Shown here: piece by piece, positions 11,040 to 44,084 of the stretch
Numbering within the stretch: position 1 is the stretch's first letter
Layout of the letters: each line of letters opens with the position of its first letter
IMG/VR virus record: IMGVR_UViG_3300025322_000047
Coordinates: 1-47,332 of that record
Length of the DNA stretch: 47,332 nucleotides
Source of the DNA: a virus
Strand: one strand, 5' to 3'
Notes under the pieces: generated by a model
What the model saw: only the letters and a program-made list of their open reading frames with translations
The model's database searches: none
Told to the model about the DNA's origin: nothing
Program-made: the position numbers and the translations under genes

Positions 11040-11266
11040 AGAACACAGACAGAATTCGTGCTGCGCACCTGGAGAAGTTCACGTCGCCGCACAGGTTCCC
11101 GCTGCCAGAGCCAAAGTTCCCGTACGACTGGTGTGCCGAGCAGGGCGAAGGCACGACGTCGTTGCGGTGGATGAGCGAGTCCGGCCCGGGGAGGGCTGAG
11201 CTTCCGACGTGGCTGATCGATCGACTTGTGGAGGCGCGGCAGCGGCAGAAGGGGCGGGAGACATGA
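11036..11266 (+). CDS. Hypothetical protein (76 aa)
   Basis: ATG overlapping the upstream stop by 4 bases. The protein has FTSPHRFPLPEPKFPYDW and a helical C-terminus (PTWLIDRLVEARQRQ). It sits between portal and GroES-like genes in the head module and is coupled to both neighbours. No family recognised. Confidence 0.55.
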   Translation: MKNTDRIRAAHLEKFTSPHRFPLPEPKFPYDWCAEQGEGTTSLRWMSESGPGRAELPTWLIDRLVEARQRQKGRET

Positions 11267-11853
11267 GCAAAGCGTTGAAGTTCTCGTCGATCGAAGCTCT
11301 GTACCTGGGACGTAACGCCAAGGCGTACTACGCCACGGAAAAGCTCCGTGTTCGCTGTGAGGAGGTCGGTATCAAGCCTCCCACCGGTCAGCCGCTCGAC
11401 AACAACGTCATCGTGTGGCGCCTTCCACCGCTCTCGCTGTCTTCCGGTGGAATCATCATGCCCGAGGATTCCCAGAACCCGCATACCAAGGGGATTCTGA
11501 TTGCCATGGGCCCGAGGGCCATGGACTACCTGGCCTCGAACGGCATCGAGGAAGGCGACATCGTCACCTGGGCCAGGTTTTCGGGCTGGGAGGCCCATGA
11601 CAAGACGTCGACCAAGAACCTAAAGACCGAGTTCTGCACGCTCAAGGACCGCGACATCCTGTGGTCCGACGACCTGAGGGTTGACCTTGCGTCAGGCAAG
11701 GCCAAGTACGTCCTGGATCAGGCGACCGGACGTCATTGCCTGCAGCGCAAGTTGCTATCGGGGAAGAAACAGAAGTTGCTCGCGCTGGCGGCGTCCACGA
11801 CGTCCCCGCATGAAGCCGAGACCGCCCGGCGTTTGGCGGCCGAACACAAGTAG
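11263..11853 (+). CDS. GroES-like co-chaperonin with DUF2786-like tail
   Basis: Residues 47-138 form a GroES (Cpn10) domain: DNNVIVWRLPP, then a mobile-loop-like LSSGGIIMPED, then GILIAMGP, GDIVTWARFSGWE and LKDRDILW. Phage GroES proteins such as T4 gp31 steer host GroEL to fold the capsid protein. Residues 169-196 (KQKLLALAAST, then PHEAETARRLAAEH) match the DUF2786 repeat pattern. The N-terminal 45 residues are an extra helical part. The start is the ATG overlapping the previous stop. The fusion is unusual. Confidence 0.75.
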   Translation: MSKALKFSSIEALYLGRNAKAYYATEKLRVRCEEVGIKPPTGQPLDNNVIVWRLPPLSLSSGGIIMPEDSQNPHTKGILIAMGPRAMDYLASNGIEEGDIVTWARFSGWEAHDKTSTKNLKTEFCTLKDRDILWSDDLRVDLASGKAKYVLDQATGRHCLQRKLLSGKKQKLLALAASTTSPHEAETARRLAAEHK

Positions 11854-11862
11854 GAGGAGCAG

Positions 11863-12807
11863 ATGGCATTTCGAGAAGGCGCAGAGGGAGAGTCGGACGA
11901 CAAGCCGACGCCCGAGAACACCCCGGAAGCAGACGAGACCAAGGTTCGCCTCGACGTCGCCGACGATGACGACGGTGACGACGACGACAAGACCCCCGAC
12001 GACAAGCCGCAGGCCGACGGACAGCCGCGCAAGAAAGACGGCACCTGGGCAGCGCGAAAGGCCGAGCGGGCGACAGATCGCAGGGCCGCAAAAGCCTGGG
12101 AAACCGAGAAACAGGACTACGACCGCCGACTTCGGCAGGTCCAGGAGAACAGCGACCGTACGGTGCGCCAACTCCGTGAGGACATGGAGCGACTGTCTAA
12201 GCAGACCCAGGGACAGGGGGCTCCACAGGACCGGTTCACGGCGGAGATTGTAGATATTCGCAAGCAACTCGCAGCGGAGCTCAAGCTTATAGAGACTGAC
12301 GATGCGCGCGGCTACGACCGATACAACGAGTTGCAAGAACGAAAGAACGAGCTCATCGCCGACCGCCGAATTGCGGCAGACCGGGAAGCCCAGAAGCAGA
12401 ACCAGCCCCAGCGCAGTCAGTACGACAACAGGGCGCCGTTCATCGAGTCCGAGTACCCGTGGGTCACTGAGCAGCGCTACGCGCCCATGGCTGTGAAGGC
12501 AGCCGCGTACAAGAACTACCTCGTCAATGTCGAGGGCCGTCCAGACACCCTGGACACCGACCGAGAGGCCCTGGCGCACATCCAGGCGAAGTTCGGGGCC
12601 GAGTTCGGCATGAGAGTCCCGGCCCCCCCAAGCCCGCGCACCAGGAGCCTCTATGGCGGTCCGCGGGTCTCGAGCGCGCCGTCGGGGAGGCGGGAGCTGC
12701 CGGCGGAGGTCGATCTCGGCCCGATGGGCATCGGTCACGGCCTGTCAGAGAAGACCCTGGCCAGGATTCTCCGTGAAGAGCTCGGAGGCAACGGGCGGGG
12801 GGAGTGA
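11863..12807 (+). CDS. Capsid scaffolding protein
   Basis: The 314-residue protein begins with a very acidic disordered part (DVADDDDGDDDDKTPDD), continues with a coiled coil (about 75-180, RRLRQVQENSDRTVRQL and following) and ends with a small basic/hydrophobic tail, the layout of tailed-phage scaffolds. It lies between portal/chaperone genes and the capsid genes, where scaffold is expected. A GGAGGAG ribosome site precedes the ATG. It would organise coat subunits into the procapsid and then leave. Confidence 0.8.
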   Translation: MAFREGAEGESDDKPTPENTPEADETKVRLDVADDDDGDDDDKTPDDKPQADGQPRKKDGTWAARKAERATDRRAAKAWETEKQDYDRRLRQVQENSDRTVRQLREDMERLSKQTQGQGAPQDRFTAEIVDIRKQLAAELKLIETDDARGYDRYNELQERKNELIADRRIAADREAQKQNQPQRSQYDNRAPFIESEYPWVTEQRYAPMAVKAAAYKNYLVNVEGRPDTLDTDREALAHIQAKFGAEFGMRVPAPPSPRTRSLYGGPRVSSAPSGRRELPAEVDLGPMGIGHGLSEKTLARILREELGGNGRGE

Positions 12808-12812
12808 AATAG

Positions 12813-12846
12813 TTGTTGCGCTTATTAGCGCTTCATGAGTTACAAT
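12813..12846 (+). promoter_or_regulatory. Candidate capsid-operon promoter with dyad
   Basis: TACAAT (12841-12846) is a good -10. Upstream, TTGCGC (12816-12821) lies 19 bases away, a poor -35 and long spacing. The palindrome GCGCTTATTAGCGC (12818-12831) covers the -35 region and may be an activator or repressor site. A start near 12853 would begin just before the three-hairpin leader. Confidence 0.45.
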
Positions 12847-12860
12847 AGGGGCATCTCACA

Positions 12861-12974
12861 CGGCCTGTGACCTTCGGGTCAAGTGGTGGCTGGAGATGAA
12901 GCGGCCTGCACCTTCGGGTGAGTGGTGGCTGAAACGGATGGCCTGGCGGGCTCCGCGGCTCGCAGTGGTGGCTC
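12861..12974 (+). ncRNA. Three-hairpin leader RNA
   Basis: Three modules follow each other: GGCCTG, then a hairpin, then AGTGGTGGCT. The stems are TGACC/GGTCA with a TTCG loop (12868-12881), CACC/GGTG with a TTCG loop (12909-12920) and GCGGGC/GCTCGC with a 6-base loop (12946-12963). Each hairpin directly abuts AGTGGTGGCT (12882, 12921, 12964). GGCC can pair with GGCT to close an outer stem around an asymmetric internal loop. Stems vary with compensation while flanks stay fixed, which points to conserved RNA structure. No U-tract follows, so not terminators. Confidence 0.65.
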
Positions 12975-12998
12975 TCGGTTTCGCGGGATGGAGTCCCA

Positions 12999-13469
12999 AT
13001 GCCACGTCCGACCAAGGCGAAGGCCCCCCGGCAGTCATCGGTCCAGCAGATGCTGGGCGTCGAAACCCTTTCCCGCATCGACCCCGATGAAGACTTCTCG
13101 GAGGTCGACGGTGATCCACGGAACGACTACGCGCTCGACGGCGAAGAGTCGGACCGCCATTACGTGTGGGTCCGCAACCACGCTGATGACATCGGCGAGT
13201 ACAAGAGCTGGTACGTCCCGTATCGCGTCGAGTACGCGACCAAAGACGGCGTGACTCCGAAGGCTTCGGCCGAGCTCACCCAGGACGAGCAGATCACCAA
13301 GCGTGGTCACGTCCTCATGAGCTGCGACAAGGCCCTGTGGCAGAAGCGCAACCGCTTCGACCACGCGCAGACCACGAAGACCAACGAGTTGATGTTCAAG
13401 CGCAAGCAACGAGACCTGGACCTCCGGCGCCCCGGCGCTCTCGAGGCCGAGCACGCGGAGATGAGGTAA
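12999..13469 (+). CDS. Head-associated hypothetical protein
   Basis: A GGATGGAG ribosome site precedes the ATG. The 156-residue charged protein has an acidic N-terminal part (IDPDEDFSEVDGDPRNDYAL) and a basic helical C-terminus. It is the first gene after the three-hairpin leader and three bases before the decoration-like gene, so it is probably a virion protein. No family recognised. Confidence 0.6.
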   Translation: MPRPTKAKAPRQSSVQQMLGVETLSRIDPDEDFSEVDGDPRNDYALDGEESDRHYVWVRNHADDIGEYKSWYVPYRVEYATKDGVTPKASAELTQDEQITKRGHVLMSCDKALWQKRNRFDHAQTTKTNELMFKRKQRDLDLRRPGALEAEHAEMR

Positions 13470-13472
13470 CCA

Positions 13473-14063
13473 ATGGCTAACGTTCTTCAGGGCGGCTTCA
13501 CTCCGCGCCGGACCCCGGCCGGGTGCAGCCCGAGACGGTACGAGGTGGCGTCGAGCTACGGCACGGCGCTTTTCCCGGGTGACGTGGTCACCCTCGTGAC
13601 CGCTGGAACCGTCGAGTCGGCAGCGGCAGGCGCCTCGGTGCTGATTCTCGGCGTCATAGCGCACGTCAGTTACGTGTCAGGAGGGGTGAGGCTATACGGC
13701 CCGTACATCCCGGCTACCACGGTCTACTCCCCGACGGCACGCGGCTCGGCGAATGCCAGCTACGTGTACGTGTGGGACGACCCGGCCATCGAGTACATCG
13801 CCGCGATGGACGTCGCCACCACGGCGGCCCTCAACTACGCGGGCGTCGGCTCGAACGTGGACCTCAAGGTCTCCGACGCAGGCTCGACGGTGTACGGGCG
13901 GTCGGCTCACAAGTTGGACGGCACGTACGTCGCGGGGATTGCTCAGTTCCGGATTCTGGAAATGCTGCGCGAGCCGGGGAATGACCTGACTGCGCAGTAT
14001 CAGCGAGTCGTCTGCATGATCAACGAGGGCGCTCACGCCTTCACTAGCACGGCGGGGCTCTAA
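13473..14063 (+). CDS. Probable capsid decoration/cement protein
   Basis: The 196-residue protein is rich in Gly, Ala, Val and Thr with predicted beta strands (DVVTLVTAGTV, SVLILGVIAHVSYVSG) as in trimeric head-decoration or cement proteins. It stands immediately before the major capsid gene, three bases after the previous stop. The function is inferred from position, size and composition. Confidence 0.55.
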   Translation: MANVLQGGFTPRRTPAGCSPRRYEVASSYGTALFPGDVVTLVTAGTVESAAAGASVLILGVIAHVSYVSGGVRLYGPYIPATTVYSPTARGSANASYVYVWDDPAIEYIAAMDVATTAALNYAGVGSNVDLKVSDAGSTVYGRSAHKLDGTYVAGIAQFRILEMLREPGNDLTAQYQRVVCMINEGAHAFTSTAGL

Positions 14064-14065
14064 CC

Positions 14066-14977
14066 ATGGCCGCAAGCGTACACAGTGGGAATATCCCGAG
14101 CGTCTGGCACAAGATGCTCGGGGAAGTCTGGATGGACGAGTCTGCAAAGAACGAGGCCATCTGGAAGCAGTACCTGGAAGAGAAAACCACCAACAAGAAG
14201 TACTTCGACGACGTCGAACTGGTGGAGCCTGGGCTGTGGTCGGAAACCGACGAAGGTGCCGATCTCGACCTTGACGACTACGCCGAAGGGATCAAGAAGC
14301 GCTACGAGCCGAAGAAGTTCTCGAAGCGTCTGATCATCCCCGAGGAGGTCAAGGAGGACTCCCAGTATCCGGAGGTGTACGACGCCGTCCGCATGCTGCA
14401 AAACACCTGTACCGTCTCCCAGGACTACGACGCGGTCCAGATTCTCAACGACGCCTTCACCGGGTCGCTGGCGGCTGGCCTGTCGGGCGATGGGGTGTCG
14501 GTCGCCTCGGCTTCGCACGTCATCCGTGGCGGCGCGACGGTGTCGAACATCCTCTCGCCGCCACTGTCTCCGTCGAACCCGGCGGTGCAGGCGATGTTGA
14601 TCGCGGCTGAGAAGATGCCAGGCACGAACGGGTACATCCGGTCGATCCGGCTGTCGAAGATGCTGGGCCCGACCAACCACAAGTGGCGGTTCAAGGAAAT
14701 CTTGAAATCCGAAATGCGCGACGACACGGCGAACCACGCCATCAACGCGCTCAAGGGCGAGCTCTCCTCGACCTACGTCTCGGTGCCCTTCATGAGCTCG
14801 CTGACCAACTTCTTCGGGAAGACGGACGTCAAGCGAGGCGCGATGTGGTTCTGGCGGCGCAAGCCCAGGTTCAAGGCGGGCAACGAAATCCGCAACGAGA
14901 CCGAGATTCACACGGGCTCGGCTCGCTGGGACAAGGGCGTTTCGAACTGGCGGACCTTCATCGGCAGCGCAGCGTAA
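14066..14977 (+). CDS. Major capsid protein
   Basis: The 303-residue protein follows scaffold and decoration genes and precedes the beta-helix proteins. It shows the mix of charged N-terminal helix (KNEAIWKQYLEEKTT), a central alpha/beta domain and the C-terminal KGVSNWRTFIGSAA end that resembles endings of phage coat proteins. An HK97-like fold is expected. It is probably the most abundant virion protein and the likely client of the GroES-like protein. Confidence 0.78.
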   Translation: MAASVHSGNIPSVWHKMLGEVWMDESAKNEAIWKQYLEEKTTNKKYFDDVELVEPGLWSETDEGADLDLDDYAEGIKKRYEPKKFSKRLIIPEEVKEDSQYPEVYDAVRMLQNTCTVSQDYDAVQILNDAFTGSLAAGLSGDGVSVASASHVIRGGATVSNILSPPLSPSNPAVQAMLIAAEKMPGTNGYIRSIRLSKMLGPTNHKWRFKEILKSEMRDDTANHAINALKGELSSTYVSVPFMSSLTNFFGKTDVKRGAMWFWRRKPRFKAGNEIRNETEIHTGSARWDKGVSNWRTFIGSAA

Positions 14978-40126: not shown

Positions 40127-41490
40127 CCGCATCAGAGGTAACGGCATTAGCACCACGCCCGACGGTGGCCATGAGTCTCGCGTCTGCCGCGATGTCGATC
40201 CAAGACATCGTCGCGCAGAAGCAGCTACTGGCCCAGTGCATGCGGGAGGTGATGAAGGCCGATGAACACTACGGCATCATCCCGGGCGCCAAGAAACCGT
40301 CGCTATGGAAACCGGGGGCGGACCTCATCGGCTTCCTGTTCCAGCTCGAAGCTGACTACGCAGATGAGGAGACCGTCCGCCGGGACGACTACATCTACTA
40401 CCGGCGGAAGTGCATCCTCACGCACATCCCGACGGGAAGGCGAGTCGGGGCTGGGGTTGGGTCGTGCAACTCACGTGAAGAGAAGTACGTCCGCGCCGCA
40501 CCAAGGAAGTGCCCCAACTGCTCGAAGGAAACCATCATCAAGGGGAAGGAGGAGTACGGCGGGGGGTGGCTGTGCTTCGTGAAGAAGGGCGGGTGTGGTG
40601 GGAAGTGGAAGGATGGAGACCAAGTCATCGAGGGACAGGACACGGGAATCGCCGACCCGTCGGACCTGGACAACACAATCCTCAAGATGGCGAACAAGCG
40701 AGCGCGCATCGACGCGATTCTCACCGCTACCGCCGCGTCGGACTTCTTCACCCAGGACGTAGAAGACCTGTCAGAGCGCGCCGCTCGGCTAGTGGTCCAC
40801 GACGCGAAGGAGGAGTACATCCCCCCGAAGGGTGGGGCCGACCCAAAAGGTGCGACTGGTGCGGTTCGCCCATCGACGGTGCCGGCGACTGCATCGGCTG
40901 GATCAACTGCCCAGGCTCCGGCGACGACAGTGACTAAGAAGCGCGTTGACTCTGGCGCCGCCGACGTCAAACACGACGGGGTGATGCTCTCCCCGGCCCA
41001 GCTCACGAAGATTCAGATTCTACGCAAGGAATGTGGCGGGAAGTGGTGTACCGACGAAGGGGACGACAGAACGGGGTGGCGGAAGGTTCTCGGGGTGTAC
41101 CGAGACCAAATCGGCGAGCGGATCAAGTCGTCTAGGGACCTCTCGAAGTATCAGGCCAGCCACTTGATCGAACGCATGGCCGCCTACGTCGAGCAACACA
41201 AGAACGTGGACCCCATCGACATCGGCCACATCCCCGATAAGTACCCAGACGCCGCGGCACTGGCGGACCTCAGGGGCAAAATCCAGGACCAGGACTTCGT
41301 GGAGCCCGAGTGGGTTGGGGACCTGTTCGGTGTCGATAACGCTGCGGCCCTGACGAAGAACCAGGCCGAGACTGCGCTGCAGCTCTTGCTAGAGCGCCAA
41401 AAGGGCCCCGTGGAGTACGACGTCATGCTCGAGCGGGCCATTCGGGCGGGTCTCGTCAACGACGTCATGAGCAGGGACGTGCGCGAATGA
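40123..41490 (+). CDS. Recombination-associated zinc protein
   Basis: The 455-residue protein has an N-terminal domain with HYGIIPGAKKPSLWKPGADL (49-68), a four-cysteine zinc ribbon (C130, C133, C151, C158) and the signature DNTILKMANKRARIDAIL then TATAASDFFTQDVED (183-214). This family is widespread in phages near recombination genes and is thought to be single-strand-annealing or recombination-linked; its biochemistry is not settled. The second half has a linker and a helical C-terminal domain. ATG overlaps the previous stop. Confidence 0.65.
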   Translation: MTASEVTALAPRPTVAMSLASAAMSIQDIVAQKQLLAQCMREVMKADEHYGIIPGAKKPSLWKPGADLIGFLFQLEADYADEETVRRDDYIYYRRKCILTHIPTGRRVGAGVGSCNSREEKYVRAAPRKCPNCSKETIIKGKEEYGGGWLCFVKKGGCGGKWKDGDQVIEGQDTGIADPSDLDNTILKMANKRARIDAILTATAASDFFTQDVEDLSERAARLVVHDAKEEYIPPKGGADPKGATGAVRPSTVPATASAGSTAQAPATTVTKKRVDSGAADVKHDGVMLSPAQLTKIQILRKECGGKWCTDEGDDRTGWRKVLGVYRDQIGERIKSSRDLSKYQASHLIERMAAYVEQHKNVDPIDIGHIPDKYPDAAALADLRGKIQDQDFVEPEWVGDLFGVDNAAALTKNQAETALQLLLERQKGPVEYDVMLERAIRAGLVNDVMSRDVRE

Positions 41491-41726
41491 ACGACCTGGA
41501 GCTGGCCAGGCACATCGCCATCCAGCACGGGGAGTCACCCCTCGACATCCTTGGGCCTCGGAAGCTGGCGAAATTCGTGCGGGTTCGCCGGGTCATCGCC
41601 ATCGTGCTCAGAACCATTAGAAGGCGTTCCTGGAGCGAGATAGCCGACGTGTTCGGACGGTCTAACCACACAAGCGCAATGAACCTCGTTCGCCCGAAAC
41701 ACAACAAACGGGCCTCCCGTCAATAG
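41487..41726 (+). CDS. DnaA domain IV-like DNA-binding protein
   Basis: The 79-residue protein matches the C-terminal DnaA domain: RKLAKFVRVRRVIAIVL, then SWSEIADVFGRSNHTSAMNLV (49-68), where NHTSAM corresponds to the DHTTV signature that contacts the DnaA box. It lacks any AAA+ part. It could recognise a phage origin or compete with host DnaA. Its ATG overlaps the preceding stop. Confidence 0.72.
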   Translation: MNDLELARHIAIQHGESPLDILGPRKLAKFVRVRRVIAIVLRTIRRRSWSEIADVFGRSNHTSAMNLVRPKHNKRASRQ

Positions 41727-41766: not shown

Positions 41767-41823
41767 CCCCCCAGTCAGTAGAACCCTGTATTGATACCCC
41801 CGTTCCTGGGACGGATTGGGGGG
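41767..41823 (+). promoter_or_regulatory. Inverted repeat before the integrase RBS
   Basis: CCCCCCAGTC (41767-41776) pairs with GATTGGGGGG (41814-41823), ten pairs with one G-U. The 3' arm ends two bases before the GGAAGG ribosome site of the integrase, so it may control integrase translation or end the upstream transcript. A weak ACCTCTAC copy of the repeated motif lies at 41746-41753. Confidence 0.4.
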
Positions 41824-41836
41824 TGGAAGGCTTTGG

Positions 41837-42889
41837 ATGGACCGGGAAAGGGTGGAGGCCGCGCTTGCGGTGCTCCAATCGGAGATTCATCGGTCGCCGC
41901 TGACACCGTCCGCCAGCGCAGTCACAGTGCGTGAATTGTGGGAAGCATGGAAATGCGCCCACGTAAATCTCGCAGCCCTGCCGACCGAAGAGTGGCGCTC
42001 GACGCATTTACTACTCGCGTTCGCCTCTCGCAGTGGAAGTGCCCTTGGCGCCGCTGACCTCGACGCCTATCGGGCTGCGCGTTCGCAGACGGTCACGAAG
42101 CGTGGACATCCTCCGACGGTGGCTACGATCAACCGGGAGCTAGTTCTGCTGCAGCGGGTGCTCAACTTTGGCGTCTCTCGCCGCATGATTCCGCTCAACC
42201 CCATCCACGGCTATCGCCTCGAGCGCGAGAACAACGCTGGGGAAGTGGTCGTTACTGAGCAGGGCATAGAGATCATCCTGCGACGCATCGGCCACGCAGC
42301 AGCGCGGGCGTGGACCATCGTGGCGTTCGAGTCAGGCATGCGGAGGTCAGAGGTGTGGAACCTCTGCTGGCGACAGCTCGACTGGAAAAGCGGTCTCATC
42401 GAAGTTCCCGGGACACACACGAAGAGCAAGCGCCCTCGGATCGTAGAGTTCCCCGCCCGCTCACAAGCCGAGCTCGCCGCACTCCCCCGTGTCATCGGGC
42501 AGCCGCGAGTGTTCGTCAACGTCGCCACCGGCCAGCCCTATCACGCCCGCTGGCTCTACAAGCTCTTCGTGCGCGCGGTACTCGGATCGGGCGTGGTCGG
42601 CATCAACGGCCGTCGACCAACCTGGCACGATCTTCGACGCAGCTACATCACGCTCATGCGCCGGCGAGGCGTCCAGGAGTCGGTAGTGATGTTGTTTTCT
42701 GGCCACTCCAGCCGCGACGTGTTCGACCGCTACAATATCGTCGTTCCCGACGAGTTGCGTCCAGCCATCGAGAAAAACGCAAGCGGTAGGGCGCGAGAAC
42801 TTGCGGCACTGCGTCCGAATCGACAAGGCCCGAAGCGAGCAGAGCAGAAAAATGTTGCGGACCAGTGCGTACCCATGAGACAGAAATAA
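41837..42889 (+). CDS. int: Tyrosine integrase
   Basis: The 350-residue protein has a core-binding N-terminal part (to about 130) and a tyrosine recombinase catalytic domain with R169 (SGMRRSEV), K196 (THTKSKRPR), H264 and R267 (WHDLRRSY), H290 (FSGHSS) and Y299 (FDRYN). All six catalytic residues are present, so it should be active. GTGGAAGG lies six bases before the ATG at 41837, chosen over a TTG at 41816. The attP-like tRNA half lies downstream. Confidence 0.92.
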   Translation: MDRERVEAALAVLQSEIHRSPLTPSASAVTVRELWEAWKCAHVNLAALPTEEWRSTHLLLAFASRSGSALGAADLDAYRAARSQTVTKRGHPPTVATINRELVLLQRVLNFGVSRRMIPLNPIHGYRLERENNAGEVVVTEQGIEIILRRIGHAAARAWTIVAFESGMRRSEVWNLCWRQLDWKSGLIEVPGTHTKSKRPRIVEFPARSQAELAALPRVIGQPRVFVNVATGQPYHARWLYKLFVRAVLGSGVVGINGRRPTWHDLRRSYITLMRRRGVQESVVMLFSGHSSRDVFDRYNIVVPDELRPAIEKNASGRARELAALRPNRQGPKRAEQKNVADQCVPMRQK

Positions 42890-43396: not shown

Positions 43397-43503
43397 CCCC
43401 ACAGGTCCACCGGCTCATCCGAGCTATCAAGGCTGTCCCACGTGAGTACGGGAGGGCCTTCCGAGCTGCACGGCGAGCGTATCGGGCGAGGCTGTGGCGA
43501 TGA
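43393..43503 (+). CDS. Small basic peptide (36 aa)
   Basis: GTG overlaps the previous stop and its TGA overlaps the ATG of the RNA ligase. The peptide (MTPQVHRLIRAIKAVP, then RAFRAARRAYRARLW) is an Arg-rich helix, possibly RNA-binding, or simply a coupling frame. Support rests on the double overlap. Confidence 0.4.
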   Translation: MTPQVHRLIRAIKAVPREYGRAFRAARRAYRARLWR

Positions 43504-44084
43504 GCGACGAGGCGCAGAAGGACTACGTCTTCGAGGCGTTCGATTCGATTCCAAGGCTCGTGAGATCGTGCTTCATCACAGAGAAGATCGACGGCACGAA
43601 CGCCCAGGTGTTCATCCCCGACGATCTATCGTGCATTCGGGCGGCGTCGCGAACGCGGTGGATCACTCCGGGAGACGACAACCACGGATTCGCCCGTTGG
43701 GTTGCCGACAACGCTGACGAGCTGATGAAGCTCGGCCCCGGTAGGCATTACGGGGAATGGTGGGGGGCCGGGATTCAGAGGCGGTACGGGCTGAGCGAGA
43801 AACGGTTCTCGCTGTTCAATTCGGGGCGCTGGAGCAACCAGGAAAGCGGTCGCCCATCGTGTTGTCACGTCGTCCCCGTTCTCTATAACGGAGAATTCTC
43901 GACGGCGGCCGTGGATGAGCAACTACGTCGCCTTGAGACCGAGGGGTCGGTTGCTTCCCCGGGATTCATGAAGCCAGAAGGCGTGGTGATCTACCTGACC
44001 GCCGCGCGAAAGCTGTTCAAGAAGACCATCGGAGACGACGGTCACAAGGGGGACGCGTTCCAGGCCCGCGAGGCTCGCCCGTGA
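43500..44084 (+). CDS. Rnl2-like RNA ligase
   Basis: The 194-residue protein has the nucleotidyltransferase motifs in order: EKIDGTNA with nucleophile K29 (motif I), GEWWGAGIQRRYG (85-97), FSLFN (103-107), PEGVVIY (159-165) and FKKTIGDD (173-180, motif V). This single-domain size is shorter than T4 Rnl2 because a C-terminal extension is missing. It seals nicks in RNA; the phage may use it to repair cut tRNA. The ATG overlaps the preceding stop. Confidence 0.85.
   Translation: MSDEAQKDYVFEAFDSIPRLVRSCFITEKIDGTNAQVFIPDDLSCIRAASRTRWITPGDDNHGFARWVADNADELMKLGPGRHYGEWWGAGIQRRYGLSEKRFSLFNSGRWSNQESGRPSCCHVVPVLYNGEFSTAAVDEQLRRLETEGSVASPGFMKPEGVVIYLTAARKLFKKTIGDDGHKGDAFQAREARP

Follow-up and report, generated by a model that had tools for sequence, protein, structure and literature searches.

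A tandem array of three RNA hairpin modules stands at the head of the capsid genes in the phage DNA analysed here (47,332 nucleotides, referred to as the window), and it represents a genuine RNA control element that had not been catalogued before. The array occupies the same intergenic gap in 12 further phage contigs, which makes 13 phages and 27 modules in total, and, at about even chances, it serves as a sequence-specific RNA-binding site, present in several copies where the capsid mRNA begins, and adjusts capsid expression post-transcriptionally. No Rfam 15 family matched at its gathering score in the window, the leader or six homologous loci (the best score of the leader, 8.3 bits against a cut-off of 90, is a chance match), and no published description of the array was found in a limited set of open-licence literature. 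The coordinates are collected in Table 1.

Table 1. Features of the array and its surroundings in the window.
Feature	Positions	Strand	Sequence or remark	Basis
Upstream gene	11863-12807	+	Ends 54 bp before module 1	Scaffold-like by position only; conserved synteny
Predicted sigma70-like promoter	12813-12846	+	TTGTTG (12813-12818), 17 bp, TGAGTT (12836-12841); alternative -10 TACAAT (12841-12846)	Weak boxes
Inverted repeat	12818-12831		GCGCTtattAGCGC; inside promoter, possible operator	
Module 1	12862-12891	+	GGCC-UG-[UGACC UUCG GGUCA]-AGUGGU-GGCU	Sequence, RNAfold, shuffle test
Module 2	12903-12930	+	GGCC-UG-[CACC UUCG GGUG]-AGUGGU-GGCU	Sequence, RNAfold, shuffle test
Module 3	12940-12973	+	GGCC-UG-[GCGGGC...GCUCGC]-AGUGGU-GGCU	Sequence, RNAfold, shuffle test
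Extended basal helix of module 3	12931-12982	+	GAAACGGAT (12931-12939) with CTCGGTTTC (12974-12982)	Predicted
Shine-Dalgarno-like GGAG of the 12999 gene	12990-12993	+	Outside the modules	Sequence
12999 gene, first after the array	12999-13469	+	156 aa	Conserved in all 13 phages
Second capsid-operon gene (13473)	13473-14063	+	196 aa	Weak match to phrog_37556 (unknown function)
Major capsid protein	14066-14977	+	303 aa	tblastn to annotated major capsid proteins and alignments

A preliminary description of this DNA had placed the 3' elements of the modules at 12882, 12921 and 12964, behind stems of TGACC/GGTCA, CACC/GGTG and GCGGGC/GCTCGC two of them with TTCG tetraloops, and direct reading of the sequence gives exactly these starts and stems, TTCG closing the first two. 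The suggested pairing of GGCC with GGCT around each hairpin, leaving an asymmetric loop, is borne out by RNAfold, which predicts in every module a GGCC/GGCT lower helix, a 2x6 internal loop (UG/AGUGGU) and an upper hairpin. The lower helix usually has five pairs, C-GGCC with GGCU-G, the second of which is a G.U pair, and an extended basal helix, as in module 3, is also predicted in contigs L125, L129 and L013. The pattern GGCCTG-N(6-30)-AGTGGTGGCT occurs three times in the window against 0.00 expected from 100 dinucleotide shuffles, and no further copy lies outside the array in the whole 47,332-base record. The folding energy of the leader is unremarkable, being no better than that of shuffled GC-rich sequence (z = -0.55), and the case therefore rests on covariation and comparison, not on energy.

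The related contigs are metagenomic and were collected along several routes. An exact-pattern scan of viral contigs returned 120 matches, nearly all of them due to chance; L013, L065 (recognised later) and L082 were accepted as real on the basis of hairpin and synteny, L082 and L013 having true hairpins ahead of 12999 homologues. Queries with the capsid and 12999 proteins yielded L125, L126, L127 (the same contig as L082), L129, L130, L283 and L286, the short pieces L288 and L289 came from a Myxococcales MAG, and L316, in which the array precedes 12999- and 13473-like genes, was added by a tandem class B pattern. Since stems were never a search criterion, and L125, L126, L129, L283, L130, L286, L288 and L289 were found via their proteins, the conservation of the flanks is not circular. 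No genome searched contains a second array.

Two classes of module can be distinguished. Class A comprises 18 modules from eight phages (the window, L125, L129, L283, L065, L127, L126 and L013) with the consensus GGCC-UG-stem-A[GC](N)NGU-GGC[U/C], the first module of L283 being the sole one with a divergent loop, and class B comprises nine modules from five phages (L130, L286, L288, L289 and L316) with the consensus [A/G]GCC-[U/G]-stem-G[U/C][A/C]C-GGUA. Class B thus keeps the architecture with new flanks in every copy, and both classes have in common a GCC/GG[U/C] lower helix, a 3' strand longer by three to four bases and, on top, a hairpin that is free to vary. The conserved parts are the flanks and the asymmetric loop; stem sequence, stem length (from two pairs with a GAAA loop in L283 up to ~11 in L129) and apical loop (UUCG, UCCC, GAAA, AAUGA and longer) vary. 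The long leaders of L130, L286 and L316 contain a third conserved element after the class B modules, ~[AG]CCGCA...GCGCGGTG, with CCGC/GCGG pairing. As to co-occurrence, one of the IMG samples 3300010371 and 3300020202 contains both L283 (class A) and L130 (class B), and the other holds two class A phages (L013 and L125) whose coats are only ~35% identical.

Covariation was counted after trimming of the apical loops. In class A, 96.1% of cells are paired, against 21-68% in slid controls, and double-change cells number 28 against 8.5 in shuffles (0/500); the corresponding values for class B are 98.2% and 11 against 3.9. In 14 of 16 modules the 5' arm pairs with the 3' arm of the same module, compared with a mean of 2.7 and a maximum of 9 in 20,000 permutations. 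Furthermore, the base after GCC in class B covaries with the third base after the stem (U-A or G-C) in all nine modules (seven of seven, and two more in L316). Of the aligned rows, 16/17 in class A and 7/7 in class B preserve the lower-helix G.U pair; read from the opposite strand it would become A.C, which identifies the + strand RNA as the form that folds. Shuffles, arm permutations and the covariation in both classes rule out a chance origin of the array, and the earlier proposal that the leader contains three copies of an RNA structure under selection is upheld by the covariation within the window and across the 13 phages.

The leader had further been described as lying between a likely promoter and the capsid operon. 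The homologues support this, since the corresponding -35 position in the 12 other phages reads TTGACA, TTGACG, TTGACT or TTGAAA, whereas the window's own promoter is weak: both alternatives, TTGTTG-N17-TGAGTT and TTGCGC-N19-TACAAT, are poor, and a promoter scan of the window did not call a capsid-leader promoter. In 12 phages, 34-51 nt separate the -35 box from module 1, so that transcription is predicted to begin at the module or a few bases ahead of it; in the window, the predicted start falls ~10-15 nt upstream, and in L126 the first intact module is at the second array position. Inverted repeats of phage-specific sequence lie in or across the capsid promoters of the window, L065, L125, L013, L289 and L126, with a summed stem length of 73 against a maximum of 66 in 1000 shuffles. 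They are weak or absent in several phages and reach up to 13 bp in L126, where the -35 box sits in the loop; they possibly form a set of operators.

That the array stands before the capsid genes, as originally stated, is confirmed by tblastn, which identifies the gene at 14066-14977 as that of the major capsid protein. The product of the 12999 gene has no match to a known family and no recognisable RNA-binding fold; its predicted structure (mean pLDDT 74) has no PDB match, and against a viral library only uncharacterised phage proteins match (best E = 0.01). The 12999 proteins of the class B phages L130, L286, L288, L289 and L316 have in common a basic N-terminal motif that class A proteins do not have (for example, ARIIKRTKQGTQALAP in L288 and TRVIKRGKHGTTAIAP in L286), which is a candidate RNA-binding arm, and the N-terminus of the L013 protein is acidic. 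Elsewhere, the window encodes a GroES-like co-chaperonin with a DUF2786 tail among the head genes (11209-11853), a DnaA C-terminal-like HTH protein just under its Pfam cut-off (41487-41726), an RNA ligase (43494-44084) and a tyrosine integrase (41816-42889), in view of which the phage may be temperate.

Wherever the contig includes the leader, an array is present in each phage found whose capsid protein is 35% identical or more; homologues with the same genes and no paired modules, which the preliminary description had named as the observation that would speak against it, were not encountered in this range. Among relatives at ~25% capsid identity, the array is absent, as in MW202785 (coat ~25% identical), where the gene order is kept and the gap is 12 bp, and a generic scan upstream of the capsid gene in ~50 loci (capsid 23-28% identical) found no related shared-flank hairpin array. 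A different and unrelated repeated hairpin, CGGCCAAAAC...GTTTTGGCCGTT with variable loops, was seen upstream of the capsid region in L163 (~1112-1217). The coat gene of the Puniceispirillum phage HMO-2011 (L326, 14113-14352) has a TTGACA promoter-like site, and its coat leader of ~190 nt contains a long hairpin and is free of these modules. No further close relatives were found in 379 Myxococcota genomes; on Myxococcota chromosomes, module patterns occurred at control level and capsid relatives almost only in the one Myxococcales MAG, which gives no evidence on the host.

With HMO-2011 and phiM6 as the root of a terminase tree, L013, a class A phage, branches outside all others (100/99), and class B forms a single clade (100/100) among class A lineages; the capsid and 13473 trees agree with this in outline. 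This nesting suggests that class A is probably the older form, and that class B arose by one switch that altered the flanks of every copy. Class A flanks are almost identical between phages with coats only ~35% identical. The coat of L013 is 35.1% identical to class A coats and 36.5% to class B coats, its RNA being class A, and the coat therefore does not track the RNA class.

As the lower helix and the loop are conserved, and stem and apical loop are free, recognition is expected at the base of the hairpin. In the binding-site reading that we favour, an internal promoter would start the transcript at or just before module 1, and each module would fold into a lower GCC/GGY helix, an asymmetric loop with three to four extra 3' bases and a free hairpin, as the covariation supports. 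The lower helix and the loop would form the recognition surface for a sequence-specific RNA-binding partner, with the hairpin only capping and holding it, which is suggested by the part that varies. Two to three tandem copies would permit multivalent binding, and the outcome would be control over the dosage of the high-copy capsid proteins, via mRNA stability or via translation of the 12999-13473-capsid cluster. The joint flank change in one phage clade would mean that the array followed a partner whose specificity changed. Partner, multivalency and effect are what we infer. Among the head genes the array has a middle position, ahead of the high-copy capsid proteins rather than of terminase or portal, and gene-specific dosage therefore fits better than processivity along the whole late operon. 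With the Shine-Dalgarno site placed beyond the modules, blocking ribosome access by simple occlusion would not be an obvious mechanism. The lack of a known RNA-binding fold in the 12999 protein also counts against this explanation.

If one of the operon's own products (the 12999 protein, the 13473 protein, the scaffold or the coat) were the partner, it would repress its own synthesis by binding the array, a form of autoregulation. In 13/13 phages these genes come directly after the array, and the basic N-terminus of the class B 12999 proteins sets them apart from those of class A. Nevertheless, we consider autoregulation improbable, as L013 combines a class A RNA with a coat equidistant from both classes and an acidic 12999 N-terminus, the 12999 protein has no RNA-binding fold, and the phylogeny gives the coat no support; the operon genes share roughly one tree, which singles out none of them. 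Another reading is a plain stabiliser, in which hairpins at the very 5' end protect the capsid mRNA from 5'-end-dependent decay and have no specific ligand. Capsid genes need high mRNA levels, and in most phages the predicted start coincides with module 1 or adjoins it; however, near-invariant flanks and loop, two to three copies and the joint change in class B would all be left unexplained, and we give this reading a small chance. It is very improbable that a small RNA of its own is released from the leader, whether to act like a packaging RNA or as a decoy for an RNA-binding protein of the host. The modules are self-contained and in tandem, so that trimming between them is conceivable; against this, no terminator lies between array and gene, the same gene always follows directly with its ribosome site close, and the linkers are not conserved as processing sites.

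The partner could also be the host RNA polymerase, bound directly by the nascent array, which would then resist pausing and termination along the structural operon in the manner of put. The two or three bulged hairpins directly follow a promoter and head a long operon, and they resemble HK022 putL in position and in the bulged stem-loops (PMC9378689), and the flank class does not follow the coat protein, as a host-side partner would predict. Still, we regard a put-like antiterminator as unlikely: there are no strong terminators downstream (nine terminator-like sites against 13.3 in shuffles), the array precedes the capsid genes and not the start of the head operon, and put is not a tandem array of interchangeable constant-flank modules, nor was any sequence similarity to it found. 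Only a low probability is given to a variant in which the array, as an RNA that needs no protein, loads from the 5' end of the capsid transcript onto the RNA polymerase or some other core machine of the host. Such an element would have evolved independently of HK022 put, with interchangeable modules and two specificity classes that follow the host machinery and not the capsid proteins.

Several other readings were rejected. An intrinsic terminator or attenuator is excluded, as there is no U-run and no terminator-like site in 12800-13000 on the + strand. A DNA-level element, either a bipartite protein site or an N4-type single-strand hairpin promoter, does not agree with constant blocks that are 8 to 33 nt apart with compensatory stems, and the conserved G.U pair favouring the + strand and the TTGAC-type promoter upstream also argue against it. 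The short open reading frame over the array (12896-13090) cannot be a conserved leader peptide because module lengths differ by non-multiples of three.

The array is a compact, conserved structured RNA of tailed DNA phages without an Rfam entry, at the location from which phages adjust the amounts of the proteins they make most of. Free stems, fixed hairpin bases and two orthogonal-looking classes give clean predictions for mutants and class swaps, and if the partner is found, the array may yield a new modular RNA-protein (or RNA-polymerase) pair with which to control gene expression.

Phage leader hairpins near a promoter are known from the lambda nut sites, where boxB is bound by N. Recognition of boxB lies in the stem and the apical loop, and boxA accompanies it, whereas the array conserves the base of the hairpin and leaves the apical loop free to vary. 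The coat operators of MS2 and PP7 are hairpins by structural genes whose recognition needs loop and bulge bases; the array likewise stands beside structural genes, which makes autoregulation plausible by analogy, but it has several copies and belongs to a different phage type. Type III toxin-antitoxin loci have a promoter, near-identical pseudoknot repeats of ~36-40 nt, a terminator and a toxin gene, and the order of promoter, tandem structured RNA repeats and protein gene is similar here. However, the repeats of the array share only their flanks and the hairpins differ, no terminator-like site precedes the gene, and the next gene is a conserved member of the capsid operon whose 12999 product has no known-family match. 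The likeness to put (putL and putR) of HK022 lies in a phage RNA directly past a promoter with bulged or non-canonical hairpins, and by its predicted start the array is indeed just downstream of a phage promoter. In PMC9378689, putL is placed just downstream of PL, with a length of ~70 nt and two bulged stem-loops, and its target is the beta' zinc-binding domain. put acts at the level of the nascent RNA, and the array may do likewise. put is, however, one ~70-nt fold of two adjacent stem-loops in early operons, whereas the array consists of two to three separate, interchangeable modules with linkers and constant flanks, placed before the capsid genes.
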